Positions 3,686 through 63,217 of a stretch of 64,000 nucleotides of DNA are shown in pieces. The notes beneath the pieces are model-generated. The model did not search any database. It had not been told where the DNA came from and saw only the letters and a program-made list of their open reading frames with translations. The stretch spans positions 1-64,000 of the forward strand of contig WPIF01000001.1 of the NCBI GenBank assembly GCA_009773185.1, written 5' to 3'. The stretch is from Nitrospirota bacterium (GTDB lineage Bacteria > Nitrospirota > Thermodesulfovibrionia > Thermodesulfovibrionales > UBA1546). The translations under genes and the position numbers were made by a program. The stretch's first letter is position 1. Each line of letters begins with the position of its first letter.

Positions 3686-3800
3686 TCATAACTCCCCTTT
3701 CCCCCCTCTTATCTTTTCTCCTCGGCGAGTCGCCCGAGGCGACCTGAGTGCGGAAAGAGGGGGTGCCGAAGGCGGGGGCGTTAGGCTAAGAGGGAATGAG
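3671..3800. repeat. Dispersed C-rich/G-rich repeat, copy 1
   Basis: CCCCCTCTT and AAGAGGGGGTGCCG arms flank a CTCGGCGAGTCGCCCGAGGCG palindrome. Closely related sequence recurs at 4193-4252 and 59041-59216. This copy overlaps and extends the 3' end of the DUF559 gene. Confidence 0.6.
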
Positions 3801-4192: not shown

Positions 4193-4252
4193 AGTAACTC
4201 CCCCTTGCCCCCTCTTAAGCTAAGAGGGGGTGCCGGAGGCGGGGGCGTTATT
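4193..4252. repeat. Dispersed C-rich/G-rich repeat, copy 2
   Basis: CCCCCTTGCCCCCTCTTAAG followed by AGAGGGGGTGCCGGAGGCGG forms a hairpin and matches the repeat at 3671-3800. It lies just upstream of the DUF559 gene. Confidence 0.6.
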
Positions 4253-21743: not shown

Positions 21744-22496
21744 ATGATTAAGCTTTTATTTATTATTTCATTCCTGTTAGTGCCTTCCTTTGCCTTTGCA
21801 TGGGGGCCTCTGACACATGTCTATCTTGGGAGCGAGATATACTATTTCGGCTCACTATTACCTGCCGGCATATATGCCTTAATGAAGAAATACAGGAATG
21901 ACTTTATCTACGGTAACCTTATGGCAGACATCATTGTCGGCAAAAAATATCTGCCTGACGAGAAAAGTTCCCATAACTGGGATGTCGCCTTCAGCCTGTT
22001 TGATGCTGCCACAACACAACAGCAAAAGACCTTTGTCTATGGTTATATGAGCCATCTTGCAGCAGATACTGTCGCACATGAGAGGCTCACGATAGGAAGA
22101 AAAAATGTCGGCCATACATTTCTTGAACTGAAGGCAGACAGCATCGTTGACAAGAAATACTGGTTTAAGGCCATAGCAATTGATAAAAAGGTCCAGGTAA
22201 GGAACGATATTTTCCTTGAGAGGTCTCTGGAGAGGGCCATGTTTTCCTTCAAGACAAATAAACGCATTTTTAAAAGTGTAGTGCTCCTTTCCGGCCTGCA
22301 TCAGGAGGGGTTAAGCAGTTTTATTGACAGGAATATAATAGTGCCTCCTGCTTATACAAAGGAATACATTACAAAATTCCAGGAAGAATCCCTTGACAGA
22401 ATTATTGATATCCTCCAGAACGGCAGGGATTCGGAAGTCCTGAAAAAAAATCCGCTTGGCAGCCCAAGACACAGAAGACGTTTATTCCTCTCCTAA
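21744..22496 (+). CDS. Zinc-dependent phospholipase C-like secreted protein
   Basis: In this 250-residue protein, the signal peptide ends after Ala19, leaving a mature N-terminus beginning Trp-Gly-Pro-Leu-Thr-His. In the Zn-dependent phospholipase C family (PF00882) the free N-terminal Trp and an early His bind zinc, so this start is telling. Further likely ligands are Asp in NLMADIIVG, His in SSHNWDV, and the GYMSHLAADTVAHER run with His and Asp. It is probably a periplasmic or membrane-facing metallo-hydrolase; its substrate is unknown. A repeat element follows its stop. Confidence 0.75.
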   Translation: MIKLLFIISFLLVPSFAFAWGPLTHVYLGSEIYYFGSLLPAGIYALMKKYRNDFIYGNLMADIIVGKKYLPDEKSSHNWDVAFSLFDAATTQQQKTFVYGYMSHLAADTVAHERLTIGRKNVGHTFLELKADSIVDKKYWFKAIAIDKKVQVRNDIFLERSLERAMFSFKTNKRIFKSVVLLSGLHQEGLSSFIDRNIIVPPAYTKEYITKFQEESLDRIIDILQNGRDSEVLKKNPLGSPRHRRRLFLS

Positions 22497-22518
22497 AGTA
22501 ATCTATTTATTTCACAGA

Positions 22519-22643
22519 GACAGGCAGAATGTGGTATTTGAGCGGTTTTTTTTGCCGATAGTCCGACAGTTCACATAATATATAAAGAGGCAAAAACCTC
22601 GGAGCGTAGCGAGAATGAGCGAAAATGCTGCATGCTGCCTGTT
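22519..22643 (+). repeat. Palindrome-ended dispersed element, copy 1 (upstream of moeA)
   Basis: Terminal arms ACAGGCAG and CTGCCTGT pair. The core shares TTTGAGCGG...TTGCCGATAGTCC...CCTCGGAGCGTAGCGAG with copies at 23953-24069 and 40751-40859. Confidence 0.8.
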
Positions 22644-22664
22644 CTGTTTTTTATTTCTCTGCAA

Positions 22665-22693
22665 TTGACTAATCCTTTTCAAAATGCTATTAA
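22665..22693 (+). promoter_or_regulatory. Promoter of moeA, likely leaderless
   Basis: TTGACT (22665-22670) and TATTAA (22688-22693) are 17 bases apart. The ATG at 22700 begins only six bases past the -10 box, and no ribosome site precedes it. Confidence 0.6.
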
Positions 22694-22699
22694 AGACTG

Positions 22700-23953
22700 A
22701 TGCGTGATATGCTCGGCAGAGAAGAAGTTGTTACTGTTGAAAAGGCCCTTGAACTTATATTTAAAAATTGCTCTCCTGCATTACCTCCTGAAGTGAAAAT
22801 AAAGATTGAAGATTTTTATCAGAGAATCCTCGCAAGAGATATATGCTCACCTGAAGACCTGCCGCAGTTTGCGCGTTCAACAGTTGATGGTTTTGCAGTT
22901 GCTTCTTCAGATACATTCGGGGCCACAGAAGGCTTGCCGTCGTATCTGAATGTTACAGGCGAAATATTAATGGGTGAAGAGCCATCCCTTGAAATAAAAA
23001 AAGGAACAGCCGCAAAAATAGCAACAGGCGGAATGCTCCCAAAGGGCGCTGACGCTGTTGTGATGATAGAACATGTTCAACAGGCAGACAAGAAGATGAT
23101 CGAGGTTATGAAACCTGCTGCACCCGGAGAAAATGTGATTCAGGCAGGCGAAGATGTGAGGAAAGGCGATCTGATATTTAAAAAAGGGCATCGTCTAAGG
23201 CCGCAGGATGCTGGTGCGCTTGCAGGCATTGGAATAACAGAGATATTCGTCTATGAAAAACCCATTGTTTCGATAATATCAACAGGTGATGAGATTGTTC
23301 CCGCAGGCAGCAGGCTTAAGCCCGGACAGGTAAGAGACATAAATTCATTTAATCTTGCAGGCCTTATCTCAGAGGCAGGAGGCAACCCTGTGAAACAGGG
23401 GATTTTCAGCGATGAATATGCCGTGATTAGAAATATCGTTGAAAAGTCTCTTGGAGATTCTTCGATGGTGCTGATTTCAGGCGGAAGCTCTGTTGGCACA
23501 AAGGATATGACCGCAAAGATTATAAATGATGTTGGAAAACCAGGCACGCTGTTTCATGGAGTGTCAATAAAACCCGGCAAGCCAATGATAGGAGGCATTG
23601 TAAACAATAAACCCATATTCGGCCTTCCTGGGCATCCGGCTGCCATTACTGTCTGCTTCGAGCAGTTCATAGAGCCTGTCCTGACAAAACTTACAGGACT
23701 TTCAGAAAATAAGTTCAAAGGCAGAAAATCCTCTGTAACGGCAAAGATGGCAAAGAATATCGCATCAAGCTCAGGGAGGGAAGACCATATAAGGGTTGCG
23801 CTTGAAGAGCGTGGCAGTGAAATCTGGGCTAATCCGATTCTTGGTAAATCAGGGCTTATAACGACGCTTGTTAAGGCTGACGGGATTGTTGTTATCCCTC
23901 TCAGAAAATTGGGAATAGAACAGGGAGAGGTGGTTGAAGTGAGGTTATTTTAG
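22700..23953 (+). CDS. moeA: Molybdopterin molybdenumtransferase (MoeA)
   Basis: This 417-residue protein inserts molybdate (or tungstate) into adenylylated molybdopterin. It contains the conserved ARSTVDGFAVAS region, the GGMLPKGADAVVMIEHV segment, STGDEIV, RDINSFNL, the MoCF-type SGGSSVGTKD motif, and VSIKPGKPMIGG with LPGHPAA. Its length is standard. It would serve Mo/W enzymes encoded elsewhere; none in this window clearly needs the cofactor. The gene is bracketed by two inverted copies of the dispersed element, and its stop codon abuts the second copy. Confidence 0.93.
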   Translation: MRDMLGREEVVTVEKALELIFKNCSPALPPEVKIKIEDFYQRILARDICSPEDLPQFARSTVDGFAVASSDTFGATEGLPSYLNVTGEILMGEEPSLEIKKGTAAKIATGGMLPKGADAVVMIEHVQQADKKMIEVMKPAAPGENVIQAGEDVRKGDLIFKKGHRLRPQDAGALAGIGITEIFVYEKPIVSIISTGDEIVPAGSRLKPGQVRDINSFNLAGLISEAGGNPVKQGIFSDEYAVIRNIVEKSLGDSSMVLISGGSSVGTKDMTAKIINDVGKPGTLFHGVSIKPGKPMIGGIVNNKPIFGLPGHPAAITVCFEQFIEPVLTKLTGLSENKFKGRKSSVTAKMAKNIASSSGREDHIRVALEERGSEIWANPILGKSGLITTLVKADGIVVIPLRKLGIEQGEVVEVRLF

Positions 23954-24069
23954 ACAGGGGATAGCATCTTCGCTCATTCTCGCTACGCTCCGAGGTTTTT
24001 GCCTCTTTATATATTATGTGAACTGTCGGACTATCGGCAAAAAAAACCGCTCAGACACTATCCCCTGTC
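23953..24069 (-). repeat. Palindrome-ended dispersed element, copy 2 (downstream of moeA)
   Basis: Terminal arms GACAGGGGATAG and CTATCCCCTGTC pair perfectly over 12 bases. The core matches copy 1 in reverse orientation. The first base is shared with the moeA stop codon. Confidence 0.85.
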
Positions 24070-24136
24070 TTTATTTAATTATGGATGGAAAATCTGTGAT
24101 ATAGCTCAAAACAGCCCTGCATTGGCTTTGCTATTC

Positions 24137-24174: not shown

Positions 24175-24249
24175 AGGCTCGTAGCTCAGGGGGAGAGCGC
24201 TTCCTTGACACGGAAGAGGTCGGCGGTTCGATACCGCCCGGGCCTACCA
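24175..24249 (+). tRNA. tRNA-Val (GAC)
   Basis: The cloverleaf has acceptor AGGCTCG paired with CGGGCCT, anticodon loop TTGACAC (anticodon GAC), T-arm GGCGGTTCGATACCGCC, discriminator A and an encoded CCA. Only 22 bases separate it from the thrS ribosome site, so the two may share a transcript. Confidence 0.93.
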
Positions 24250-39643: not shown

Positions 39644-40714
39644 TCATGGTATTGCCTTGCCTGTGACAATTCTCATTATATCATTGTATAAAGCGAAGGT
39701 CATTAAGGCTATAATCACTGCAAGCCCGACCTTTTGCGCAATAATCATCACCTTTTCGCTGAGGGGCTTCCGTCTTATCGCCTCAAAGGTCAGAAACATA
39801 AGGTGGCCGCCGTCAAGTATGGGTATCGGCAGAAGATTAAGTACACCGAGGTTTATACTTATCACTGCCATAAATACAAAAAAATTCATGGCGCCAAGCG
39901 ATGCCTGCTCACCTGCCATCTGAAAAATAAGGATTGGCCCGCCGATAGTATCTGCAGGGACAATCCTCTGTATAAGCTTCACAATCCCAACGATTGTCAG
40001 CACAGATACCTCCCAGGTCCTTGTAATGCCGCTTGCTATTGCACTGCCAACCCCTTCTTTTTGTATGAAAGAGCTTCCTGAAGGTTTTATCCCTATCAGG
40101 CCTATCTCTTTTTCCTCCCCGAATATGTCTTTTATTTTTTTCCTTTCAGGGGTTATTGGCACAACGATAATATTGTTATCCCTTTTTATCTTAAAACTGA
40201 GAGCCTTATCCGGATTTTTATGTATAATGGCTGTCAGCTCTGTCCATTGATTTACCATAACTCCATCCGCCTCAACAATCCTGTCACCCTTCATAATCCC
40301 TGCTGCACTTGCCGGCGATTGTTTCATAACCTCGCCAACCTCAGGAAGAAGAACAGGCAAGCCGTGCATAAATATAAAAATGAAAATGAGCGCAGCAAAA
40401 AACAGGTTGAAAACAGGGCCTGCAAAAACTATTGCCGCCCTTTTCCATACAGGCTGGTAATTGTATGCAAACGGCTTGTCCTCTTCCTTAATCTCTTCAC
40501 CCGGCTCTTCTCCCAATGGTTTTACATATCCGCCTAATGGAACGGCAGAGATAAGGTATTCCGTGTCTCCATACTTCCTGCCGATAAGTTTCGGGCCAAA
40601 TCCCAGAGAAAACTTCAGGACCCTTACGCCAACCAGTTTGGCCAAAATAAAATGCCCGAATTCATGCACGAATATCAGAATTCCAAGTAATACTATTGCT
40701 GAAAGAAATGTCAT
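39644..40714 (-). CDS. rseP: RIP metalloprotease RseP (site-2 protease)
   Basis: This 356-residue membrane zinc protease has HEFGHFILAKLVGVRV (HExxH) in the first membrane segment and NLLPIPILDGGHLMF (third ligand Asp) in the third. One PDZ domain (residues about 115-190, AASAAGIMKGDRIVEADG) lies between them. It cleaves anti-sigma factors within the membrane during envelope stress. It sits downstream of dxr, the common order. Confidence 0.94.
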   Translation of the reverse strand: MTFLSAIVLLGILIFVHEFGHFILAKLVGVRVLKFSLGFGPKLIGRKYGDTEYLISAVPLGGYVKPLGEEPGEEIKEEDKPFAYNYQPVWKRAAIVFAGPVFNLFFAALIFIFIFMHGLPVLLPEVGEVMKQSPASAAGIMKGDRIVEADGVMVNQWTELTAIIHKNPDKALSFKIKRDNNIIVVPITPERKKIKDIFGEEKEIGLIGIKPSGSSFIQKEGVGSAIASGITRTWEVSVLTIVGIVKLIQRIVPADTIGGPILIFQMAGEQASLGAMNFFVFMAVISINLGVLNLLPIPILDGGHLMFLTFEAIRRKPLSEKVMIIAQKVGLAVIIALMTFALYNDIMRIVTGKAIP

Positions 40715-40750
40715 CTCTTATCTCCTAACTCGATTTCATTAACTCTACCA

Positions 40751-40859
40751 CAGGCAGGGCATAGTATTTGAGCGGTTTATTTTGCCGATAGTCCATAAAA
40801 TAAAGATGCAAAATCCTCGGAGCGCAGCGAGAATGAGCGAGAATGCTATGTTCTGCCTG
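40751..40859 (+). repeat. Palindrome-ended dispersed element, copy 3 (dxr 3' end)
   Basis: Arms CAGGCAG-N2-CATAG and CTATG-N2-CTGCCTG pair. The core matches copies 1 and 2. The last dxr codons and its stop lie inside the element. Confidence 0.8.
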
Positions 40860-42003
40860 AAAAGCCATTAATACTTTCCCTTGCCCTTTCCCTTGCCCAC
40901 CTGTCCGCCTCAATAACCACATCAATCTCTGTGACAGGCTCTTTCCTGTGCGAATTCATTACCTCTTTAATTATAACAGGAATATCATTAAACCCTATCC
41001 TTTTTTGAAGAAATGCATCCACGGCAACCTCATTTGCGGCATTTAAAACAGCAGGCATTGTTCCGCCTTCTTTAGACGCCTCATACGCATATAAAAGACA
41101 GGGGAAACATTCTGTGTCAGGTTTCCGGAATGTGAGTTTTTCAATACTGCTTAAATCAAGCTCCGGCATGGGCTCCTCAATCCTTTCAGGATATGAAAGC
41201 GCATAAGCTATGGGGCCCTTCATATCAGGGACTGAAAGCTGTGCCAGATAACTCCTGTCTTTAAACTCAATCATTGAATGGACTATGCTCTGAGGATGTA
41301 CAAGCACATCAATCTTATCTGAAGAAAAACCAAAAAGATGATGTGCCTCTATGACCTCAAGCCCCTTATTCATAAGCGTTGCAGAGTCTATTGTTATTTT
41401 CCTGCCCATATCCCAGTTTGGATGTTTCAGGGCATCCTCCAGAGTCACCTTGCCCAACTCTTTTCTGGTACTGCCGAAAAAGGGGCCGCCGGAAGCGGTA
41501 AGCACTATCCGTTTTATGGAGTCCCTGCCCCGCCCTTCGATGCACTGAAATATGGCGCTATGCTCGCTGTCCACAGGAATTATTTTTGAGCCGTATTTTG
41601 CTGCATACGCCATAACTATCTCCCCTGCAACAACAAGGGACTCTTTGTTGGCGAGCCCGACTGTTTTCCCTGCCCTTACAGCAGAAAGCGTCGGCAGAAG
41701 GCCTGCAAAACCAACAATTGCTGAAAGTACAAAATCAGACCTGCTGTATGAAGCAACCTCTGCAATGCCTGCATCGTCTGACAAGACTTCAATATCAAGT
41801 TTTTTTCTTAACTTGATTGCGTTTGCTCCATCAGCTACTGCCACTATTTCCGGCTTAAATTTCTTTATCTGATCTTCGAGTAATCTTATGTTGCTGTTAG
41901 CAGTAAGCCCTATTACCTTAAACCGGTCCCTGCATTTTGAGATTACTTCAAGAGCGCTTCTCCCTATCGAGCCTGTCGAACCTAATATTGTTACCAGTTT
42001 CAC
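40846..42003 (-). CDS. dxr: 1-deoxy-D-xylulose 5-phosphate reductoisomerase
   Basis: This protein of about 385 residues starts at GTG 42003, overlapping the cdsA stop (GTGA). LVTILGSTGSIGRSALEVI is the NADPH site. The catalytic motifs are VDSEHSAIFQ, LTASGGPFFG, NWDMGRKITIDSATLMNKGLE and LSYPER. The C-terminal helical domain is complete up to SGRT, whose codons come from a dispersed repeat. It makes MEP for isoprenoids, consistent with uppS in the same operon. Confidence 0.94.
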   Translation of the reverse strand: MKLVTILGSTGSIGRSALEVISKCRDRFKVIGLTANSNIRLLEDQIKKFKPEIVAVADGANAIKLRKKLDIEVLSDDAGIAEVASYSRSDFVLSAIVGFAGLLPTLSAVRAGKTVGLANKESLVVAGEIVMAYAAKYGSKIIPVDSEHSAIFQCIEGRGRDSIKRIVLTASGGPFFGSTRKELGKVTLEDALKHPNWDMGRKITIDSATLMNKGLEVIEAHHLFGFSSDKIDVLVHPQSIVHSMIEFKDRSYLAQLSVPDMKGPIAYALSYPERIEEPMPELDLSSIEKLTFRKPDTECFPCLLYAYEASKEGGTMPAVLNAANEVAVDAFLQKRIGFNDIPVIIKEVMNSHRKEPVTEIDVVIEADRWARERARESINGFSGRT

Positions 42004-42839
42004 TTTATTAACCCAAAAACTATTGCAGCCCAATAGAGCACAGGCCCGGCAAACAGCACCCCGTCAATCTTATCAAGCACGCCGCCGTGTCCCGGAAATA
42101 TGTTGCTTGAGTCTTTAATGCCGGCATCCCGTTTGAACATTGACTCCACCAGATCTCCTATAATAGTTACTGCGCCCGTAATTATTCCCAGCCCGACAGC
42201 CGTAAATAAAGGCAAGGCTATTGAAGATATAAATACCGTCTTAAGAATAACCGCTCCTGCTGCCCCGCCTGCTATGGAGCCGACAGCGCCTGCAACTGTC
42301 TTATTAGGGCTTATCGCCTCATACAGTTTTCTCCCGCCAATACCTTTGCCCATATAATATGCAAGGCTGTCCGAGGCCCACACGCATCCGTAAAGGAATA
42401 TTATCCATTCATATCCCTGATTCCTGAGGTATATCTGATAACCAAGGAGCCATGGAATATATACGATAGCAGTCACTGCAGTTGCTGTATCAAACAGCGA
42501 GGATTCAGGGCCACGTTTAAAAAAAAGTCTCATGCAGGCAATCACGATAAATAAGACTGCAAACAAATCAAAAGGCTGAAAGCCGAGGGCTGTCCCGACA
42601 AGTCGGGACTCTCCGGGGAGAGAGGGCTGAGGGCTAAAGGCTAAAATAGTTACTGCCCCGAAAGCAAGGCCCGTATATTTCAACAGGCCTTTAACCCTGT
42701 ACATAGAATAGAATTCGTACTGTGCAACAGCTGTGACGGCAATAAGCAAAAAAAGAAAATACACTGCCGGAAGTTTTGTTATGTAGAAATAAGCAAGGGG
42801 CAGTATGATAAAAGCAATGATCAGCCTTTTCCGATGCAT
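42000..42839 (-). CDS. cdsA: Phosphatidate cytidylyltransferase (CdsA)
   Basis: This 279-residue multi-pass membrane protein makes CDP-diacylglycerol. The C-terminal signature SNIFPGHGGVLDKIDG is intact, preceded by DSLAYYMGKGIGGRKLYEAISPNKT. Residues about 64-90 (AFSPQPSLPGESRLVG) are encoded by heptamer repeats and a CCCGACAAGTCGGG palindrome inserted in frame in a loop between two membrane segments. It overlaps dxr by four bases and starts just after uppS. Confidence 0.93.
   Translation of the reverse strand: MHRKRLIIAFIILPLAYFYITKLPAVYFLFLLIAVTAVAQYEFYSMYRVKGLLKYTGLAFGAVTILAFSPQPSLPGESRLVGTALGFQPFDLFAVLFIVIACMRLFFKRGPESSLFDTATAVTAIVYIPWLLGYQIYLRNQGYEWIIFLYGCVWASDSLAYYMGKGIGGRKLYEAISPNKTVAGAVGSIAGGAAGAVILKTVFISSIALPLFTAVGLGIITGAVTIIGDLVESMFKRDAGIKDSSNIFPGHGGVLDKIDGVLFAGPVLYWAAIVFGLIK
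42570..42649. repeat. Heptamer repeats plus palindrome inside cdsA
   Basis: GAGGGCT, GAGGGCT and AAAGGCT units (+ strand) flank TCCCGACAAGTCGGGA. The insert keeps the cdsA frame. Confidence 0.65.
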
Positions 42840-45371: not shown

Positions 45372-47623
45372 TTCTTCCCCTCTCCAAAACAAATATTGAA
45401 CCCTATTTTTTCCGCCCCGGTCTCCTCAGCGACTCGCCGGGTGCGAGCGGATCCCCGATTACTATCACTCAAATCAAGCTTCTTCATGAATAAAAATGCC
45501 GTGCCCTGATACAGCCTCTCAACTCCCTGCTCTGACAGGGAAATGGTCTCCACCGGATAATGCCACAAATCCACATCTTCGTCAAAGGAAAACTCCATCT
45601 TCAGGTTGAGAAATTCGTCCTTAATGAAAAATCCGGTTATAGCATTATGCATGCCTTTATCCTTTATAAAAAGAGATTTATTCCCTGCATGTACTGTGGC
45701 ATATGGAGAACCTAAAAAAGAGAGATTAAATTCTATAGCAAATATGCCAGCATACCTGCCCCCGAGCAGGTAATCAACCCTTATCCCTGATTTTTTGCCC
45801 ACCCCGGCGGATCCCTGAAATAAAACAGTCTTGTCAATTTTTACCTGACAGCCTGAAGCAATTCCCTCCCTTGACAGGATGACGCCTGTGCCCTCCTTCT
45901 TTTTAATCTGCTCCAGATGATAAGGACTGCCTATAAAGTCACCCCTTTCATCGTATTCGGACCTTATTAAGTCATTGAGTTTTATATTATAATCGAAAAA
46001 ATGGTCCAGCAGCGACATTCTTCTGTAATTATCGTATACAAGGCAATCCAAAAGGCCTTCCTCTTTAACAAAAAATCTGTCGTGGATTGTCTTTGCTTCT
46101 CCTGCATCATTTTGTGTTGTCTCTAATATTTTAGAATGATATGCCTCAGGCCTGCGGGTAAGTATATCCAGTGTATTAACCTGCCTGCTTTTTATTGAAA
46201 GCTCAACAAGCGCCCCGCCCTCTTCTGTAAAAAATGCAGCCATATCTCCCCTGCCTATGCATATATCCTTAAACCCGTCGCAATCAAGGTCGCCCTGTTC
46301 AATAAATTCCGTAACTTTTCCCCTTTCTGTAACTTTTGCAACTATTTTCCCTTTTGTTTTTTTACCCTCTGAACCTAATATCTTTTCAGCCGCTAATTCT
46401 GCATTGAGAAGATGCCTGTACAATGAAGACCTCAGATGCGGCAGGTAAAGCCCCCCAAAGATGCCGTGCCAGTATGCATCATTACACTGGCCCTTCCAGA
46501 GTTCATGCAGCATTAAGCGTGTAGCATTTAGCGTATGGCGTGTAGGTTTTTGAGATTTTCTTTCTCTACCCGCTACACGCTGCGCGCTAACCGCTTTGAT
46601 TGCCTCATGCACTTTATTGCTTATCATCAACATCCTCTTATGGATATGGTTTGATTCGGGATATTTTGCAAAAAAGGAACGCCATGTCCCTCCCCTCAAA
46701 AAACTTTTGGCCCTGTCTCCGAACAGCTTCTGCATCTCGGTTAACGCATACTCATAATCAAGCGCACTGTCAGGAGGCAAGGTCCACTCACCCATTTCCC
46801 TGTAAGACGCAGCAGGCAGATATACCATGCCATTTGGATAGAACCTTTCCTGATGCCCGGCAAAGGTTGTAGTCTCTATCCATTCGGAGTTCTCTTCAAG
46901 GGCGGAAAAAAATCTATTAAGCCAATCCTCTTCATAGCAGTGCTTATATGTGTCAGGCCATAACCCGAATTTTTCACCGTCATCCGCCATGGTAAGCAGA
47001 GGAGAGCCTCCTGCCATGGAAACCTCTTTCAGGTATGACATTACATTATCAACATCCTTAAAGGGTATGCGATATCTCAATTCCTCGCTCCCCGGAAAAA
47101 CCTTTATTGAATGCCCGTTTTCTTCTGTCATGTAATACCCTAAAAGGTCCCGGTTCTCAAGCCCTGCAAGCTTAAAATGATAATCATCCACTGACAGATA
47201 TTCTATCCCTGCCTGTAATATATACTTTGGTATATGCGGCTCCCATACCCTTTCTGCAAGCCACATGCCCCTGGGCGCATAACCAAACCTGTCTTTTATA
47301 TAGGCGGTCATCTCTTCTATCTGCGTAACCCTGTCGTTCTCCGGCAGGGAACAGAGGACCGGTTCGTAGAACCCGCCTGAAAGCAACTCTACCCTCCCGC
47401 CTTTTATCAGCGCCCTTATCATATCAATTGCCTCGGGATGCCTTTTTTCGAACCACAAGAGGAGATTCCCGGAGTAATGCAGAACAATCTTTAATTTCCG
47501 GCGCTCAAGAAACCGCTCAAGAAAAGGCAGATATGCGCGCTGGTAAGCCTCTTCAAGCACATGCTCAAAATTTCCCACAGGCTGATGGTTATGGATTGAA
47601 AGTATAAGCTTGAGTTTTGACAT
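45368..47623 (-). CDS. Glycoside hydrolase family 57 (alpha-amylase / 4-alpha-glucanotransferase type)
   Basis: This 751-residue protein opens with the GH57 signature SIHNHQPVGNF. The nucleophile Glu is in WLAERVWEP and the second catalytic Asp is probably in TMADDGEKFG. The central DUF1925-like and C-terminal DUF1926 beta domains follow, as in Pyrococcus-type amylase/glucanotransferase. It probably acts on glycogen-like alpha-glucans; no signal peptide, so cytoplasmic. Residues about 342-371 and about 721-732 (RGSARTRRVAEE) are encoded by dispersed repeats inserted in frame. It overlaps the FG-GAP gene by four bases. Confidence 0.88.
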   Translation of the reverse strand: MSKLKLILSIHNHQPVGNFEHVLEEAYQRAYLPFLERFLERRKLKIVLHYSGNLLLWFEKRHPEAIDMIRALIKGGRVELLSGGFYEPVLCSLPENDRVTQIEEMTAYIKDRFGYAPRGMWLAERVWEPHIPKYILQAGIEYLSVDDYHFKLAGLENRDLLGYYMTEENGHSIKVFPGSEELRYRIPFKDVDNVMSYLKEVSMAGGSPLLTMADDGEKFGLWPDTYKHCYEEDWLNRFFSALEENSEWIETTTFAGHQERFYPNGMVYLPAASYREMGEWTLPPDSALDYEYALTEMQKLFGDRAKSFLRGGTWRSFFAKYPESNHIHKRMLMISNKVHEAIKAVSAQRVAGRERKSQKPTRHTLNATRLMLHELWKGQCNDAYWHGIFGGLYLPHLRSSLYRHLLNAELAAEKILGSEGKKTKGKIVAKVTERGKVTEFIEQGDLDCDGFKDICIGRGDMAAFFTEEGGALVELSIKSRQVNTLDILTRRPEAYHSKILETTQNDAGEAKTIHDRFFVKEEGLLDCLVYDNYRRMSLLDHFFDYNIKLNDLIRSEYDERGDFIGSPYHLEQIKKKEGTGVILSREGIASGCQVKIDKTVLFQGSAGVGKKSGIRVDYLLGGRYAGIFAIEFNLSFLGSPYATVHAGNKSLFIKDKGMHNAITGFFIKDEFLNLKMEFSFDEDVDLWHYPVETISLSEQGVERLYQGTAFLFMKKLDLSDSNRGSARTRRVAEETGAEKIGFNICFGEGKK
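45425..45460. repeat. Palindromic element inside the GH57 gene
   Basis: CTCAGCGACTCGCCGGGTGCGAG resembles the CTCGGCGAGTCGCCCGAGG palindrome at 3720-3740. It is in frame near the C-terminus. Confidence 0.45.
46511..46598. repeat. Heptamer repeats (AGCGTGT family) inside the GH57 gene
   Basis: AGCGTGT, AGCATTT, AGCGTAT and GGCGTGT run one way and CCGCTAC, ACGCTGC run back, giving a fold-back insert of about 30 codons in frame. Confidence 0.7.
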
Positions 47624-51230: not shown

Positions 51231-52253
51231 CTATTTATGCACCTTGCTGTGGCAGGTGAGGTTGCACTGCGCCCTGCCGCTGCCATAATCAAGATACTGG
51301 CCTGCGCCTGTAACCACGGAAGGATTGAATTCTATCAAATGAGGATTTGTGCTGCTGCCGTGCGAGGCATGACATGTATAGCATGAGGTCTTTTGATAGA
51401 CTATATGCTCCTTATGCCCGTAATCGCCTGACTGGCTGCCCTTGAAACTCTGATTGGAAAGAATACTGTCACGGTTATGGCAGGTATAGCACAATTCATA
51501 AGCATAAAGGCTCTCAGCCCCGTCTAGCGTGTTATAGTTCACCCTGAGCAGCGGAGGATAATCAGAACCATGAGGTTCGTGGCACTGTGTGCAGGTTATA
51601 AAACTGCCCTGAGGGAGGTCCTTGAAAAGGCTCGTGCTCCTGCCTTTTGCAACCCTTTCAACAGGGTGATAGGATGCATTTGCCGGGTCAAATTCCAGTC
51701 TCATATTGGAGCTTGAGGAAGGAAGGTTTATGCTGTCTGAATGGCAGTTATAGCACACCTCTGCTTCTTTTTCCGCCATCTTTTTTGCGCCTGAAAGAGA
51801 TGTGCCTTTTATCCTTGCCATTCTGTTGCGCGGGCTTGTCATGTGAGTGTTATGGCAGTCCTGACAACTGACATGCCTCGGCATTGCAGTATCCTTTTCC
51901 GGCAGCGCTTCATTGGCTATATGATATTTTGCCGTATCTATAATTGGATGGTTGGACCTCTTCATTAACAGGCTGTAGATGTTAGTCCTCGCCCGCTCTT
52001 CAGCCGAGCCTGAAGGGCCATGACACCTCAGGCACAAATCCACTATACGGCCCTTGCCTTTGCCTGATGGTTTATGACATGATCTGCATCCACCACTAAC
52101 CTTTGTTCTATTAAGATGCGTGCCTTTTTCAGCAGCGCTGACAACGCCTGAAGATACAAAGGTTAAGAAGGTCAAGCAGAGCAAAAAGGTTAATGCCATT
52201 TTGCCATCTTTGTTCTCTTTACCCCTTTGAAACTTATGAACCTTTTTAAACAT
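51231..52253 (-). CDS. Octahaem c-type cytochrome
   Basis: This protein of about 340 residues starts at 52253 behind AAGGAGA. It has a signal peptide, then seven CXXCH motifs (CRSCH, CLRCH, CQDCH, CYNCH, CTQCH, CYTCH, CYTCH) and a final CNLTCH with three residues between the cysteines. Extra histidines (NTH, EPHGS, ASHGS, SNHP, SYHP) could be distal ligands, as in doubled-CXXCH cytochromes. It is periplasmic or extracellular and could feed electrons to the tetrahaem protein encoded just upstream. A specific enzyme activity is not indicated. Confidence 0.85.
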   Translation of the reverse strand: MFKKVHKFQRGKENKDGKMALTFLLCLTFLTFVSSGVVSAAEKGTHLNRTKVSGGCRSCHKPSGKGKGRIVDLCLRCHGPSGSAEERARTNIYSLLMKRSNHPIIDTAKYHIANEALPEKDTAMPRHVSCQDCHNTHMTSPRNRMARIKGTSLSGAKKMAEKEAEVCYNCHSDSINLPSSSSNMRLEFDPANASYHPVERVAKGRSTSLFKDLPQGSFITCTQCHEPHGSDYPPLLRVNYNTLDGAESLYAYELCYTCHNRDSILSNQSFKGSQSGDYGHKEHIVYQKTSCYTCHASHGSSTNPHLIEFNPSVVTGAGQYLDYGSGRAQCNLTCHSKVHK

Positions 52254-52263
52254 TATTTTCTCC

Positions 52264-53151
52264 TTATGGGCAAGTATAATGGCATGTTTCACACAAAGGG
52301 TTCCAGTTTAAAGGTGTGCCTTTCACCAAAAACTTGTTATTTCCGCCAGGATCATTATGCGGGTCATGGCAGCTTCTGCATTGAACACCCATCGCATTCC
52401 CCTCACCGGGGGGATATAGATGCGTTGTCTTATAGAGTTTTACAGGGTCAGTAGAAGAAATAGTGCCAGGGTCTCTAATCGGCATACTAACCTCAGGGCA
52501 CTTGGCAAACACCGCCGCCGCAAGAGCGCTGTTATACTCCATCGAAATCAAATGATCTCCCCACCCGATATCCAAATGTTTGCCACCACTGACAAAGTTT
52601 GTTCCGAGACATGTATAGTCAAGCGGTCCGCATGGCAAATAATCCTGCGGCGTCATAGGAATATTCCCTGCCATTCCAGACCCGGGCACATTAACAAGCT
52701 GGCCCAATGCCACTGTTCCGTCATGACAGCCAAGACAGAGTTTTGAACTGCCGTCAGGCTGCTTGGCCAGCGTAACACGCCATGTATCGCCGCCATAAAA
52801 TCCGCTTGCCTCAAACCTGACACTATAAGTTGCGCTGCTGATTGAATGGTTCCATAATGGAGAGCCTGCAATGCTGGCTTCCTTGCTCGCTGAATGAGGC
52901 GTATGGCAGAAGACGCATTTCTGGGTCACTCCGCTCGCACCCGTTGCTTTAATGGTAGTAGGAAGAGGAGCATTTGCAGACAGGTCGTGTTTTGTGCCTA
53001 CTATCCCCGCAAAGACAACAGAAGTTACAAAAGTGTAAATAGTTACAAGAGTTACAAAAGTTGCAATACAAAAGTTGCAGAAGTTGAACCTATTGAAATT
53101 TTTTATCATTTTGAAACTCATTTCTTTAACCTTTTGAAATGTATTGAGCAT
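52264..53151 (-). CDS. Tetrahaem c-type cytochrome, OmcE-like (larger paralogue)
   Basis: This 295-residue protein has a signal peptide, mature VGTKHDLSANAP, then four CXXCH motifs: CVFCHTPH, CLGCHDG, CRSCHDPH, CETCH. The order KHDL ... CHTPH ... PLWNHS ... KLCLGCHDG ... CHDPH ... CETCH parallels the 219-residue protein at 59639-60298, so the two are paralogues. Seven non-motif histidines could supply bis-His ligation. The plan resembles the tetrahaem filament cytochrome OmcE. About 75 extra residues lie between haems 2 and 3. The signal-peptide region (NFCNFCIATFVTLVTIYTF) is encoded by 9-mer repeats. GGAGGA lies 11 bases before the ATG. Confidence 0.8.
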   Translation of the reverse strand: MLNTFQKVKEMSFKMIKNFNRFNFCNFCIATFVTLVTIYTFVTSVVFAGIVGTKHDLSANAPLPTTIKATGASGVTQKCVFCHTPHSASKEASIAGSPLWNHSISSATYSVRFEASGFYGGDTWRVTLAKQPDGSSKLCLGCHDGTVALGQLVNVPGSGMAGNIPMTPQDYLPCGPLDYTCLGTNFVSGGKHLDIGWGDHLISMEYNSALAAAVFAKCPEVSMPIRDPGTISSTDPVKLYKTTHLYPPGEGNAMGVQCRSCHDPHNDPGGNNKFLVKGTPLNWNPLCETCHYTCP

Positions 53152-53270
53152 AATTTTTTAACTCCTCCTTAAACTTTTTAACCTTTTGTAACTATTGAAA
53201 CTTTTTACCTTTTTCTTTATTTCCCCTTTTGTAACTTTTTACCCTTATCACCCTTTTTAACCATTATTTG
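53040..53270. repeat. 9-mer repeat tract, cytochrome N-terminus and upstream spacer
   Basis: On the minus strand GTTTCAAAA, GTTACAAAA and GTTGCAATA-like units recur. They run from the spacer behind the NHL gene into the signal-peptide codons of the tetrahaem cytochrome. Confidence 0.65.
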
Positions 53271-54328
53271 CCTCCCAGAAACTGAAACACCTGAACCCTG
53301 CGGTTATAGGTATCAGCTATATATATTTTATCATCTTTATCAATAAATATGCCTGCCGGAAGCCAGAACATCCCCCTGTCCCCTCCTTCTTCGCCAAAAG
53401 GCAACAAAAGCCTTCCATCCCCGTTAAATATCTTGACCGTGTCCTTGGAAGAATCCACAACATATATGTTGCCCTCGCTGTCAGCAGCAACGCCTTTTGG
53501 AAGCGCGAATTTATCGTAAGAATCCCCTGCCGAGCCGAACTTCGAGCTGAATTTTCCCTGCCTGTCAAAACCCTGTATCCTGAAATTCAAGGTGTCGGTC
53601 ACCCAGATCCTTCCGTCCTTATCCACCGTGATATGAGTGGGATAGTTGAACTCTCCATCGCCATCGCCCCTTTTTCCAATAATCAATCTTACGCTGCCGT
53701 TGGCAGGGCTTATTCCATATACCTTATGGTCAAGCGCGTCAACGACATATATGAGGTCCTTGTCTTTGTCATAAGCAAGTCCTGCGGGCCTGACAAATTT
53801 AACCTCAGATAGATTGCCGGTAAATTTTCCGTCTTTATCATAAACAAATATTTTATTAAGGTCCGAGTCGCTTACATATATGTTTCCTGCCTTATCAGCG
53901 ACAATACCGACGGGAAATCCGAGCTCGCCTTTGCCGCTTATTCCGAGCTGCAGGACCTCCATTGTCTTGATATTTATGACAGTCGCCCTCATTGCGCCTG
54001 AATCAGCTACATAAAGCCTCTCGCCTTCAAAATAAACGCTGTAAGGCATCACGAGCGCACGGCTGGCCTTCGGGTCTGTAGGGTCGCCTCCTCCGGCAAG
54101 AAAATCCACGAAAGACATCCTGGGCGCTAAAGAATAAAGGCTCCACAGGTATTTTATCCTTGGCTTTTCAGGCTGCCCCGGCCAGAGAATACCCTCGCTC
54201 ATGGCATAGTCAATATTGGCCTTGTAAACAGGCGCGCAAGCAACAAAAAGAAGGGGAAAAAGTGTAAGTAGGGGAAGAAGGTGAAATAGGTAAAAAAGTT
54301 TCAACTTAAATAGTTTCATCTTTTTCAC
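53264..54328 (-). CDS. NHL-repeat beta-propeller lipoprotein
   Basis: In this 354-residue protein, the lipobox ends at about Cys31 (Phe-Val-Ala-Cys). Residues about 95-350 carry six NHL units (RLYVADSGAMR, NIYVSDSDLNKIFVYDKDG, LIYVVDALDHKVYG, RIWVTDTLNFRIQGFDRQGKF, NIYVVDSSKDTVKIF, KIYIADTYNRRVQVFQ). It is probably an outer-membrane-anchored propeller. A second NHL protein is encoded at the far end of the locus (63218 onward). NHL proteins are recurrent neighbours of nanowire and porin-cytochrome genes in Geobacter. The leucine-rich signal peptide is encoded by 9-mer units. Confidence 0.88.
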   Translation of the reverse strand: MKKMKLFKLKLFYLFHLLPLLTLFPLLFVACAPVYKANIDYAMSEGILWPGQPEKPRIKYLWSLYSLAPRMSFVDFLAGGGDPTDPKASRALVMPYSVYFEGERLYVADSGAMRATVINIKTMEVLQLGISGKGELGFPVGIVADKAGNIYVSDSDLNKIFVYDKDGKFTGNLSEVKFVRPAGLAYDKDKDLIYVVDALDHKVYGISPANGSVRLIIGKRGDGDGEFNYPTHITVDKDGRIWVTDTLNFRIQGFDRQGKFSSKFGSAGDSYDKFALPKGVAADSEGNIYVVDSSKDTVKIFNGDGRLLLPFGEEGGDRGMFWLPAGIFIDKDDKIYIADTYNRRVQVFQFLGGK

Positions 54329-54395
54329 CTTTTGAAACTTTTGTATTGCAACTTTTGAAACTTCTGTAACTATTGTAACTTGATGTTAAGAGTTT
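54236..54395. repeat. 9-mer repeat tract in and before the NHL lipoprotein signal peptide
   Basis: On the minus strand CTATTTCAC, CTTCTTCCC, CTACTTACA and CTTTTTCCC (Leu-Phe/Leu-His/Pro/Thr) encode the hydrophobic core. The same units (GTTTCAAAA, GTTACAATA) fill the upstream spacer. Confidence 0.75.
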
Positions 54396-54778
54396 CATTT
54401 AAATTTTGCCCCCCTGATCTTTGAGACTTTTAAGGATTCTATTAAATAATATATCAGCCTTGATACTTCTGATGCTACTTTTATAATTTTATCAAATTCT
54501 TCCCCGGAAATATAGCCTAAATCCAAAGCAATATAAAGCTGTGTTCTTAGTTCTCCGCAGGAACCTTTTGCTATATACAGAAATTGAATAAATTCATTAT
54601 TTGACCCCCGCTCAAAACCTTCCGCTATATTTGATATTACTGAGATAGATGAGCGTTGAATTTGGTCTTTTAACCCAAAATCTTTCAAGAATCTTTGATT
54701 TTTTGTAATAGCATAAATCTGTTTGCAAAGTTCTCGCCCCTTCTGCCAAGCAACAATGTCTTCAAATCTCTTAATCAT
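54395..54778 (-). CDS. Four-helix-bundle protein (23S rRNA intervening-sequence / Avd-like family)
   Basis: This 127-residue protein is the typical S23/IVS family: FEDIVAWQKGRELCKQIYAIT, then FGLKDQIQRSSISVISNIAEGFERG, then ELRTQLYIALDLGYI. These form a pentameric four-helix bundle; relatives occur in 23S rRNA insertions and as the Avd accessory of diversity-generating retroelements. Here it is free-standing: no rRNA, reverse transcriptase or variable repeat lies nearby. Function is unknown. It lies between the PpiC and NHL genes, with 9-mer repeats on both sides. Confidence 0.87.
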   Translation of the reverse strand: MIKRFEDIVAWQKGRELCKQIYAITKNQRFLKDFGLKDQIQRSSISVISNIAEGFERGSNNEFIQFLYIAKGSCGELRTQLYIALDLGYISGEEFDKIIKVASEVSRLIYYLIESLKVSKIRGAKFK

Positions 54779-54868
54779 ACTTCTTCCTTTTTTATTTTTG
54801 AACCTTCTGTAACTTTTGCAACTTTTTCACCTTAATTAACCTTCTGAAACTTTTTCACCTTTTTACCC
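54779..54868. repeat. 9-mer repeat tract
   Basis: Units such as TTCTGTAAC, TTTTGCAAC, TTTTTCACC and TTCTGAAAC fill the spacer between the four-helix-bundle gene and ppiC. Confidence 0.65.
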
Positions 54869-55855
54869 TTACTTTATTGAAATAACCGCCTTTTCTTTCA
54901 GCGCTTTTATCAATGCCTCCCTGGCTTCTTTATAGCGTTTGCCTTCAAGCTCTTTTTTCAGGGAATCCTTCACCCCGGCAAAATCAAGCTGTTCCTCAGG
55001 CTTCTTTTCCTCAAGCCTGATTATATGGTAGCCGTATATCGTTTCTATAAGCCCGCTTACCTCACCAATATTAAGCCTGTATGCTGCTTCCTCCAGTTCC
55101 TGCATAAGCCTGCCTTTATGAGACAGGCCAAGGTCCCCGGCCTTCATCCTGTAATCATCCTCTGAATACTTATAGGCCAGCGCTGCAAAGTCCTCCCCTG
55201 CCTTAACCCTCTTAAGCAAATCTTCTGCCTGCTTCTTTTTTTCTTCTCTTTCTGCCTGCGTAGCAGTGGGAGAAACGTTTATTGACATCTCCCTCACCCT
55301 TATCCTGTCAGGTGAAACAAACTTGCCCTTGTTTTTATTATAATAGTCTTCCAGGTTTGCCTCAGACAGTCTTATCTTATCTTCAACTTCCTGCTTTATA
55401 AATTTCCTGCTAATAAGCTCTTTTTCTATAAGCCTCCTGTAGCTATCCTCGGTCAGCCCCATCTTTTCAAGTGCGCTATAAAAATCCTTTTTCTTTTTAA
55501 ATGCCTCTTTATTTTTATTAAAGATTTCTTTCACCTCTGATTTTTTGACACTGATGCCAAGCCTTTTCCCTTCCTGATACAGCAATTCTTTTTCAATAAG
55601 CGAATCAACCGCGGACTTCCTCAGTTGTTCCGTCCTTTCATCCGATAACCTCCCGTGAAAAGAGCCTGCGGGCATCAGCCTGTTGACTGCCATCTGAACC
55701 TCAGCCTCTGAAATATTCTCACCGTTAACAGAAGCTGCAATCTTCTTTTCCCCTGCAAAGCAAAGCGTGTAGCTATCAGGGGATAGCGGGTAGCGGGTAG
55801 CGGATAGCGTGTAGAAAAATAAAACCAATACACTGATTACTAAAATCCTTAACAT
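54869..55855 (-). CDS. PpiC/SurA-type periplasmic peptidyl-prolyl isomerase
   Basis: This 328-residue protein has a signal peptide, a SurA N-terminal-like helical chaperone domain (residues about 35-175) and a parvulin domain (about 185-280: RVREMSINVSP, AGEDFAALAYKYSED, AGDLGLSHKGRLMQELEEAAY, IETIYGYHIIRLEEKKPE). It assists folding of outer-membrane or secreted proteins, here plausibly the barrel encoded upstream and the cytochromes. Residues about 14-31 of the signal region (LSATRYPLSPDSYTL) are encoded by AGCGGGT/AGCGTGT heptamers. Confidence 0.9.
   Translation of the reverse strand: MLRILVISVLVLFFYTLSATRYPLSPDSYTLCFAGEKKIAASVNGENISEAEVQMAVNRLMPAGSFHGRLSDERTEQLRKSAVDSLIEKELLYQEGKRLGISVKKSEVKEIFNKNKEAFKKKKDFYSALEKMGLTEDSYRRLIEKELISRKFIKQEVEDKIRLSEANLEDYYNKNKGKFVSPDRIRVREMSINVSPTATQAEREEKKKQAEDLLKRVKAGEDFAALAYKYSEDDYRMKAGDLGLSHKGRLMQELEEAAYRLNIGEVSGLIETIYGYHIIRLEEKKPEEQLDFAGVKDSLKKELEGKRYKEAREALIKALKEKAVISIK
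55763..55816. repeat. Heptamer array (AGCGGGT/AGCGTGT) in the ppiC signal region
   Basis: AGCGTGT, AGCTATC, ...AGCGGGT, AGCGGGT, AGCGGAT and AGCGTGT follow one another within the coding sequence. Confidence 0.8.
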
Positions 55856-57988: not shown

Positions 57989-58012
57989 ATACACGCTACA
58001 CCCTGCACGCTA
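57889..58012. repeat. Heptamer arrays at the barrel-protein N-terminus and upstream
   Basis: GAGCGCA, GAGAGCA and GAGCAGA-type units (57889-57930) encode the Cys/Ala/Leu-rich signal region. ACACGCT and GCACGCT units (57953-58012) replace the usual ribosome-site region. Confidence 0.7.
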
Positions 58013-58013
58013 A

Positions 58014-58307
58014 TTACTTTCTCCTCCCTTTTAAGTGAACAGAACACCCCTGTCTTTCGAGGCTGTTAACATCCCTTTTAAGAGTCGAGACCGACGTCAG
58101 AAGGAGCGCATTCAGATCTGCATAGCCAAGGGGCATCCCCTGTTTCTGCGCCTCCGAGGTCAATCTCATAATCCTCTTTTTCCTCAGCTCTGAAAGTCCC
58201 TTAGAACTGAGGGTATATTCATCGTCGTTATCCACAAGCGTAAGCATAAGAGTCTTATACGCCTGTTTCCGCGCCGTTATGTAGTATTTAAGCTTCCCAA
58301 AATCCAT
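58014..58307 (-). CDS. Small HTH protein (DUF1670-like), tandem copy 2
   Basis: This 97-residue protein has a probable winged-helix core (residues about 38-90: LSELRKKRIMRLTSEAQKQG, YADLNALLLTSVSTLKRDVN, LERQGCSVHL). It resembles the HTH part of DUF1670 and is clearly a duplicate of the gene just upstream. It is likely a DNA-binding regulator of the neighbouring barrel and cytochrome genes; the target is inferred from position only. Confidence 0.65.
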   Translation of the reverse strand: MDFGKLKYYITARKQAYKTLMLTLVDNDDEYTLSSKGLSELRKKRIMRLTSEAQKQGMPLGYADLNALLLTSVSTLKRDVNSLERQGCSVHLKGRRK

Positions 58308-58316
58308 TTCTACTCC

Positions 58317-58613
58317 CTACACGCTACACGCTTTTTCTGATTTCCCATTCTTTATAAATATCTCTATACCCTGTTTCTTCAGGTAACTGATGTCCCTCTT
58401 TAAAGTTGCCAGAGATGAAAGCAGGATGAGATTCAGGTCTTTATAGCCGAGAAGGCAGCCCTGCTCTTTTGCTTCGCGCAGGAGCCTCATTATTCTTTTT
58501 CTCCGGAGCTCGGAAAGGCTTGTATACTTGAGGTCGTCCTCGTCGCATACAGTGAGCTCAAGCGAGAGCAGCCTGTGCCCGTCTTCGATCTTATAAATTA
58601 AATTTCCGCTCAT
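58317..58613 (-). CDS. Small HTH protein (DUF1670-like), tandem copy 1
   Basis: This 98-residue protein has the same core as its neighbour (LSELRRKRIMRLLREAKEQG, YKDLNLILLSSLATLKRDIS, LKKQGIEIFI). The spacer between the pair is nine bases and holds ACACGCT heptamers. The two proteins may form a heterodimer. The upstream frame that continues to 58865 is repeat sequence and not a gene. Confidence 0.65.
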   Translation of the reverse strand: MSGNLIYKIEDGHRLLSLELTVCDEDDLKYTSLSELRRKRIMRLLREAKEQGCLLGYKDLNLILLSSLATLKRDISYLKKQGIEIFIKNGKSEKACSV

Positions 58614-59293
58614 CTACCACCAGTTTAAAAAGTTGCAGTAGTTACAATAGTTGCAAAAGTGCATTTTAGAATTCCTTCCCCTATTGAAACTATTTACCCT
58701 ATTGAAACTTTTTCCCTTTTTGTAACCTTTTCCACTATTTAAACTTTTCATTTTCACCTTTTGTAACTTTTTCCCCTTATTACCCCTTTTTAAAAGCTCA
58801 TTTGAGCCTGATTTTAACAGGGCAAAAAAAATTTCTAAATAGATATCATACAAGAACCGTGCCATAAAAATAAAGGGGAAATATTTAAAAAATGTAAGTA
58901 GTTCAGATAGTTATGAGAACTTTCAAAGGCTGCTGAAATCACAAAAATAAAATAGAGGGTAAAGGCTCAGGAGATTCAAGAAATTATCCCTTCTTTCTCA
59001 AAACACCCCTGCCCCTCCTTAAACTTAAATAGGAAGGAAAGTGGTCAAACCACCCCCTTGCCCCCTCCTTTTCTCCTCGGCGAATCCGCTGGGGCGGAAA
59101 CCAAGGAGGGGAACTATGGTAAGCACTGTAGTTTTTAGCTCCCCGCCTTCGGCACCCCCTCTTTTCTCCCTATGGACATAACCCCACCTTCACCTCCCCT
59201 TAACTTAAGGGGAGGACGGGAGGGGTTAAGGGGTGGTAAGGCGTCAGCTCGGTTGCGAGTCGTACTGACTTGAAAGCTACTTGGAAATCATAT
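58614..59293. repeat. 680-base non-coding stretch made mainly of repeats
   Basis: 58620-58790 is a degenerate 9-mer tract (GTTGCAGTA, GTTACAATA, GTTGCAAAA on the minus strand). 59041-59216 holds copy 3 of the C-rich/G-rich repeat, and 59244-59264 the CTCGGTTGCGAGTCG palindrome. I see no gene in it. Confidence 0.7.
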
Positions 59294-60298: not shown

Positions 60299-60886
60299 TC
60301 GTTTTCACCTCCTTTCATTTTTAGAATAAAATTTTAAATTTCCGTCTATCTATCATGCAATCTATATGCCAATCCTCTTTAGCGTGTAGCGTGTAGCGTG
60401 TAGCGTGTAGTAATTTAACAACATTTTTATAATTTTGCAATAAATCAACATTCTTCCTTCTGTCCCCTACCCGCTATCTTCTTATTTTCTACCCGCTACA
60501 CGCTACACGCTTTCTTTAAAACTGTGTGTTTAAACCCTCTATTGCGTATTTTTACTCAGCTCTGTTTTAACTCCGACGACCTTGCTTGTGCCTTTAAATT
60601 GCAACTTTTTCACCTTTTGAAACTTTTTACCCTTTTTAAATATCTCTCATCTCTTTTTGCTAGAGCTTATCTTAAATACATTCATAACAACTTGTCAATA
60701 GTTTTTATATTTGTTTTAATATTTGACAACCATCAGTTTTCCCCTCCCTTGAGGGGAGGGGAAAAAAGAGACCATGTTTTCCCTATCAAGCCGGTACGAC
60801 TCGCAACCGAGTGGGAGGGAACTATTTTTATCGCTACAAGTTTTATCACTTCAAGGTTCCACACAAAACACGGATGAGTCTTATAT
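60299..60886. other. 590-base gap upstream of the tetrahaem cytochrome: repeats and regulatory space
   Basis: 60380-60410 holds four AGCGTGT heptamers and 60490-60512 their complements (ACACGCT), which could pair across about 100 bases. 60598-60640 is a 9-mer tract. 60741-60766 is a GGGGAGGGG hairpin, and 60794-60812 the ACTCGCAACCGAGT palindrome. No gene and no clear promoter are visible; ribosome-site-like GGAGGTG lies just before the ATG at 60298. Confidence 0.6.
60380..60410. repeat. AGCGTGT heptamer array
   Basis: Four perfect consecutive units of AGCGTGT, the cleanest example of this family in the window. Confidence 0.9.
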
Positions 60887-63190: not shown

Positions 63191-63217
63191 TACTCCCTAC
63201 CCGCTAATCGCTACACG

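Follow-up and report, generated by a model that had tools for sequence, protein, structure and literature searches.

The window, a stretch of 64,000 nucleotides from a 2.8-Mb genome of a groundwater Nitrospirota bacterium (order Thermodesulfovibrionales), contains three copies of a short, non-coding repeat of ~115-135 bp that lies in gene spacers (Table 1). Copy 1 stands between a Zn-dependent phospholipase C-like gene and moeA, copy 2 directly follows moeA in antisense orientation and precedes a tRNA-Val gene, and copy 3 occupies the spacer between a site-2 protease (M50) gene and dxr and is antisense to both. An earlier note on this DNA had described three copies with differing ends whose arms pair in each case, two of them flanking moeA in opposite orientation and two touching a stop codon. 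The sequence agrees: all three are found by a covariance model (R1, below), the moeA pair lies on opposite strands, in copy 2 the closing helix (P1) overlaps the moeA stop codon with its outermost pairs, and the dxr stop codon falls inside the right arm of copy 3.

Table 1. Coordinates in the window of the three element copies, their parts and the adjoining genes; bit scores are those of covariance model R1.
Feature	Position	Strand	Score, basis or detail
Zn-dependent phospholipase C-like gene	21744-22496	+	Pfam
Copy 1	22518-22644	+	123.5 bits
Copy 1, P1 left arm	22521-22539	+	pairs with 22623-22641
Copy 1, junction strand GAGCGG	22540-22545	+	(near-)invariant in alignment A1
Copy 1, P2 hairpin	22546-22598	+	UUU bulge, NUUUUGCC / GGCAAAAN-CC, variable A+T-rich loop; N-N pair compensation
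Copy 1, P3 mini-hairpin	22604-22610	+	GC-GTA-GC, C(GNA)G triloop
Copy 1, junction strand GAGAATGAGCGA	22611-22622	+	alignment A1
Copy 1, P1 right arm	22623-22641	+
moeA	22700-23953	+	MoeA domains by Pfam; stop TAG 23951-23953
Copy 2	23948-24074	-	128.2 bits
Copy 2, P1 right arm	23951-23969	-	overlaps moeA stop 23951-23953
Copy 2, P1 left arm	24053-24071	-	5' side on minus strand; sequence
tRNA-Val	24175-24249	+
Site-2 protease (M50) gene	39644-40714	-	Pfam
Copy 3	40748-40862	+	108.1 bits
Copy 3, P1 left arm	40751-40769	+	sequence
Copy 3, P1 right arm	40841-40859	+	holds dxr stop 40846-40848; sequence, ORF list
dxr	40846-42033	-	DXP reductoisomerase by Pfam; stop 40846-40848

We also note other repeats in the window. 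Spacers at 52207-54872, 58664-58789 and 60588-60645 consist of runs of a degenerate 9-base unit like CTTTTGAAA / CTTTTGTAA (repeat family D1), and TACACGCT / AGCGTGTA units occur in several spacers (57990-58013, 58306-58334, 60379-60513, 46563-46590 and 63191-63221). Short G+C-rich palindromic repeats of the GGTGCCGAAGGCGGGG and CTCCTCGGCGAGTCGCC types lie at 3747-3783, 4222-4250 and 59141-59171, and also at 3713-3741, 45417-45445 and 59068-59096.

Fold, covariation and distribution of the element

The strand that reads GAGCGG...GAGCGA can fold as a Y, in which P1 leads through tandem G.A pairs into a three-way junction that carries two hairpins, P2 and P3. The three junction strands, GAGCGG, CCTCGGAG and GAGAATGAGCGA, are invariant; in copy 1 the GAGCGG strand forms its tandem G.A pairs with the GCGA on the 3' side and then supplies the GG of P2. 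P1 is ~19 bp long and nearly private in sequence to each copy. The tandem G.A pairs (5'-TGAG / CGAA) and two G-C pairs come next, and in two distant copies the pair beside the tandem G.A goes from G-C to A-U on both sides. The arms have a consensus, AAGGCAGGAYATAG, and a fixed length, as is expected of a unit, and the share of Watson-Crick pairs, 90% at position 18, is down to about 30% by position 22; the base of P1 is its variable part, with no conserved base there or outside the helix. In P2, GG-UUU-NUUUUGCC pairs with GGCAAAAN-CC around a loop that is A+T-rich or occupied by another repeat, and a plain hairpin or other stem sequence takes its place at L115, L243 and L322. P3 is a hairpin of very variable sequence.

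The P2 loop of L063, L076, L103, L106 and many other loci holds a further palindromic repeat, ACAACCCCCTTAGTCCCCCTTTGCTAAGGGGGA...GTTGT, and palindromes of the CCGCCTC..GAGGCGG type are lodged in P3 or, at L133, in an arm. The invariant GCCGATA, present in P2 of nearly every copy (e.g., window 22554-22560), resembles the -10 motif of sigma-28 promoters; by eye there is no -35-like match at the usual distance from it, and the likeness is probably a coincidence.

The earlier note read the matched changes in the arms as selection or repair acting on the hairpin itself, and proposed checking arm covariation on a larger set of copies. That check was run on 134 unselected, 79 aligned and 21 distant copies, all of which covary strongly, so the reading is supported and the opposite outcome, a set without covariation, did not occur. 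Over the 17 inner positions of P1, the 134 copies not picked for pairing average 14.0 Watson-Crick, 1.95 G.T, 0.32 A.C and 0.72 other pairs with their own arms, against 9.7, 3.1, 1.55 and 2.7 when arms are swapped between copies. Alignment A1 (79 copies, picked for good pairing) has a covariation score of 0.368, compared with a shuffled mean of 0.151 and slid controls of 0.06-0.09, and alignment A2 (21 copies from other genera and families, fitted to the model) scores 0.547 versus 0.192. Of these tests the arm swap is the cleanest, because A1 includes only well-paired copies and the model served to align A2. Covariation is strong in P1, P2 and P3 alike. Three points go beyond the earlier reading: the constraint is strand-specific, with G.T retained and A.C avoided, the fold has a three-way junction instead of being a plain hairpin, and the element can move.

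Model R1, built on 79 copies, finds 113 copies in the window's own genome (E<=0.01), where a BLAST-like search scored 40. The junction strand GAGAATGAGCGA has 85 exact occurrences there versus 0 for a reversed control, and each belongs to a short copy listed by the model; an autonomous version with canonical ends was not found, and left halves that stand alone are either deletion hairpins or probably matches by chance. Among 296 genomes sampled across the phylum, 50 have covariance-model matches (44 from the same order, counting this genome, 5 from the same class and 1 other), the element is present in 23 of the 41 genomes in a set of relatives, and named records with many copies are mostly Nitrospirae or Thermodesulfovibrionales MAGs. 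The element matches no Rfam 15 family, either in the window at the gathering threshold or in six loci at E<=5, a viral collection holds 1 match to the left motif and 0 to the right, and our literature search found no account of such repeats in the phylum Nitrospirota. A cousin repeat family of ~170 nt, of the form TTGAGCGGCATCAGAGATTTTTCGGTAACAGTTCTTAG ... CTTAGAACTGTCGAAAAATATCGTAGCAAGCGAAA, occurs in the same genomes (this one, G001 and G002; L338, L341, L344 and other loci). It has variable, complementary arms, the element's GAGCG...AGCGAA ends, GAA or TTT triloops and a different interior.

Strand, loops and changes at resident loci

Wobble pairs in P1, read on the GAGCGG strand, are strongly unequal, with 261 G.T versus 43 A.C (30 versus 2 in the distant copies, 23 versus 4 in the cousin family); the composition of the P1 columns alone gives about 2 to 1, and symmetric mutation or symmetric correction would give equal numbers. 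The G.T:A.C bias is equal in every gene context (++ 55:9, -- 144:27, convergent 45:9, divergent 29:4) and so does not stem from operon mRNA; the folding strand is set by the element. Nor is it a simple C-to-T strand bias, since it appears in A/G changes (pairing retained in 45, lost in 12) and C/T changes (28 and 8) alike, in a tally that includes replaced copies. No replication-strand preference was resolved.

By gene calls from a simple codon-usage script, 83 of 108 co-directional spacers (77%) have the folding strand antisense to their genes, so that a simple function at the mRNA 3' end of moeA or dxr is unlikely to account for the constraint. The median distance to adjacent gene 3' ends is 17 nt; set beside intrinsic terminators, which are stable stems with a T run behind them at a 3' position, the element is mostly antisense in orientation and its core-deleted hairpins persist in spacers. 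In 95% of 150 copies the + strand is predicted to be more stable as RNA than the - strand (-46.4 versus -39.5 kcal/mol). One possible explanation of the antisense excess is that the fold with the greater stability (by ~7 kcal/mol) is selected against in mRNA; an insertion bias is equally possible.

P3 has a triloop in 45 of its 92 distinct hairpins and in 144 of 215 when counted by copy, with C(GNA)G loops numbering 13 and 97, respectively; GNRA tetraloops number 2-3 and UNCG loops 0. Terminator-like hairpins at the same loci have triloops in 11 of 58 cases and C(GNA)G in none. The tandem G.A motif 5'-PyGAPu is well known in DNA as well, and among DNA mini-hairpins d(GCGAAGC) is known for its extraordinary stability. 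Hairpins of the d(GCGAAGC) kind are described in PMC10527192. The triloop-rich P3, the C(GNA)G loops and the tandem G.A pairs tip the balance toward single-stranded DNA over RNA without proving it: RNA has triloops too, and the P3 variants are related by descent.

These observations bear on the possibility that the GAGCGG strand is transcribed and that selection at each locus acts on a three-way-junction RNA (regulatory RNA, ribozyme or protein-binding site). The classical signature of a functional RNA is present in the G.U intermediates, compensatory changes and conserved unpaired junction bases, the + strand is the more stable as RNA, and at resident loci broken pairs do not accumulate with divergence, but we think this explanation unlikely, if far from negligible, given a folding strand that is mostly antisense, a wobble bias identical across gene contexts, loops of DNA type, no Rfam match and no consistent gene association among the neighbours inspected.

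Changes at resident loci were counted leaving out pairs with replaced elements and same-genome duplicates. Only 8% of random copy pairs differ at <=6 pairs and 0.5% at <=3, so the pairs compared are mostly vertical. The 17 close vertical pairs (flanks >90%, <=6 changed pairs) show 9 G.U-keeping, 5 A.C and 11 other single changes and 0 double changes, a G.U share near the one third to be expected if there were no selection. The 24 older pairs (flanks 65-90%, <=6 changed; the L006/L076 deletion described below left out) show 24 G.U, 5 A.C and 9 other changes together with 18 matched double changes; chance would give about one, as estimated from the counts (some pairs share a locus). That broken pairs are few at greater divergence means that broken states are purged, compensated or corrected, and with 18 matched changes against about one expected, selection at copying alone is insufficient; the arms must also be selected or corrected while a copy stays at its locus.

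Palindromes of the element's kind are known substrates of quasipalindrome correction, and template switching during replication could copy one arm onto the other and keep them complementary without any function. Such self-correction fits the one-base deletion matched in both arms between L006 and L076 and the matched transversions at one locus (L228/L269, pair 17 A-T to T-A; L265/L280, pair 9 C-G to A-T), for which a G.T intermediate is unneeded. We nevertheless judge it improbable as the explanation, because a symmetric process should leave A.C equal to G.T, each copy retains about two G.T pairs, changes of recent date (flanks >90%) are mostly uncorrected and include no double change, and the invariant junction is left unexplained.

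Mobility and the origin of the arms

The element moves. Orthologous spacers within a genus are filled in one genome and empty in another (L077 versus L003, with 97% flank identity; L253 versus L156; L159 versus L188), one spacer has been taken repeatedly by different copies, often in opposite orientation, and relics survive, as at L255, where comparison with L169 identifies the right arm of an older copy beside a newer one. Orthologous pairs comprise 19 inverted and 101 same-orientation cases, 43 of the 101 being the same genome met twice. Inversion of the core in place was considered and rejected for most inverted pairs, which are independent insertions in which the sequence beside the arms differs too; L056/L223, a pair with similar arms, may be an exception. 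Target-site duplication gave no signal over 133 copies, with imperfect repeats in single cases only.

The arms belong to the inserted unit, and empty sites mostly have no palindrome. The converse, that the core inserts into the centre of existing palindromes such as terminators and that the arms are target sequence, strikes us as very improbable. It could account for a convergent spacer in which G000 and G001 have only the palindrome TACAGCAGAGGAC-A/T-GTCCTCTGCTGTA and G002 has the full element, but this arm-only product is also the exact outcome of deletion between 4-bp TGTC repeats, and two further arm-only hairpins, at L187 and L304, retain part of the core. Also against it are the consensus and fixed length of the arms, the absence of any palindrome from L003, L156 and L188 at the site filled in a close relative, and the lack of a clear excess of free consensus palindromes in the genome (8 versus 4 in the control). 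The hairpins at L187 (G003) and L304 (G000) are core-deleted derivatives that share one structure: distal arms with TTTGAGCGGTTT running directly into the distal right arm.

An ordinary decaying MITE family with arms alike through shared descent only, which would suit a short, non-coding, mobile repeat of high copy number and no internal gene, is hardly credible, being refuted for the arms by the loss of much pairing on swapping and by compensatory changes far above shuffled and slid controls.

Known palindromic elements and the proposed reading

No mobilizing enzyme for the element was found. The earlier note had suggested a Y1/RAYT transposase, and this link was not supported. Y1 genes are present in the genome, at C41, C30 and C5, but those of RAYT size (C41 and C30) have other inverted repeats on their flanks, and there is no model match within the 8.0, 8.0 and 3.5 kb read around the three. 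Moreover, Y1/RAYT genes are present in many genomes without the element and absent from G006 (100% complete, 7 copies), and we rejected RAYT/Y1 as mobilizer on both the flanking repeats and the mismatched distribution. At L184 (G000 C30:44000-52000) a RAYT-like open frame of 322 aa is accompanied by GGGTCAAACCTTCA inverted repeats and an adjoining tandem AGAGAAATTTGAGGGTCAA array, perhaps an REP system of its own.

Several known systems share features with the element. Integron attC sites have arms that vary yet pair, and their folded single strand is recognized by shape, but attC has conserved core boxes at the stem base, whereas the element's stem base is variable and has none. ERIC and bcr-type repeats resemble it in being ~125-150 bp, structured and intergenic; the described families, unlike the element, have conserved ends, and we know of no sequence relation between them. 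As for the MITE of a DDE transposon, with its conserved terminal inverted repeats and constant-length target-site duplication, the element's arms are inverted without being conserved in sequence, and no such duplication was seen. The GTAG- and CGTC-tagged REPs are likewise palindromic, intergenic and often 3' of coding regions, and some types have no dedicated transposase (PMC3733652), but they are 20-40 bp with a terminal tetranucleotide tag, whereas the element is ~125 bp with nothing conserved outside P1. The palindromic elements derived from IS200/IS605 (TnpA Y1) also have strand-specific hairpins on single-stranded DNA (PMC6006769); their hairpins are subterminal and served by guide tetranucleotides, however, none of which we recognized in the element, and the Y1 distribution does not match.

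REPINs are REP doublets that form hairpins, with RAYT transposases (Bertels & Rainey 2011, PMC3116915). The element is like them in having ~100 short intergenic copies of which one strand is predicted to fold as single-stranded DNA, and in REPINs, too, compensatory hairpin changes are reported and movement is thought to involve single-stranded DNA (PMC3116915). The two differ in that REPIN ends (a 16-mer with the REP) are invariant and the spacer compensates, whereas the element's ends vary and its central three-way junction is invariant. The 5' GT[AG]G tag of REPs, with invariant ends at the hairpin foot, is not seen in the element, whose P1 ends vary, and the RAYT genes of this genome have no flanking element copies.

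Our best reading is that the element is a palindromic mobile repeat read by shape, a variant of the REPIN kind with the design reversed, its ends variable and its centre fixed. We put at about an even chance the fuller proposal that it is a mobile DNA repeat whose putative enzyme reads a folded single strand by shape, that strand being single-stranded DNA more likely than RNA; movement as a folded single DNA strand would be compatible with the strand-specific wobble pairs and the DNA-type loops. Helix sequences vary freely between copies provided that they pair on the GAGCGG strand. In the proposal, the putative trans-acting enzyme would recognize the folded strand from its shape and the bases of its junction rather than from its terminal sequence. 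A copy with arms unpaired on the folding strand could not be copied and would be lost, so that arms would drift by matched changes through G.T intermediates to private but complementary ends, with additional maintenance of pairing during residence. More tentatively, and at somewhat less than even likelihood, the element may represent a mobile-element class without fixed ends, in which a single DNA strand is read only via the three-way junction and the existence of a closing helix, whatever the sequence of that helix, by an as yet undescribed enzyme, and of which the cousin family would be a second case of the same design.

The standard way to prove an RNA functional is by covariation, and here a large, ancient covarying family shows signs that its folded molecule may be DNA. 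The element is therefore a test case for telling selection on single-stranded DNA from selection on RNA and from palindrome self-correction. Should recognition depend on the fold alone and leave the ends free, the REPIN idea would extend to elements that sequence-based and terminal-repeat finders miss, and would point to an undescribed enzyme in the Thermodesulfovibrionales.
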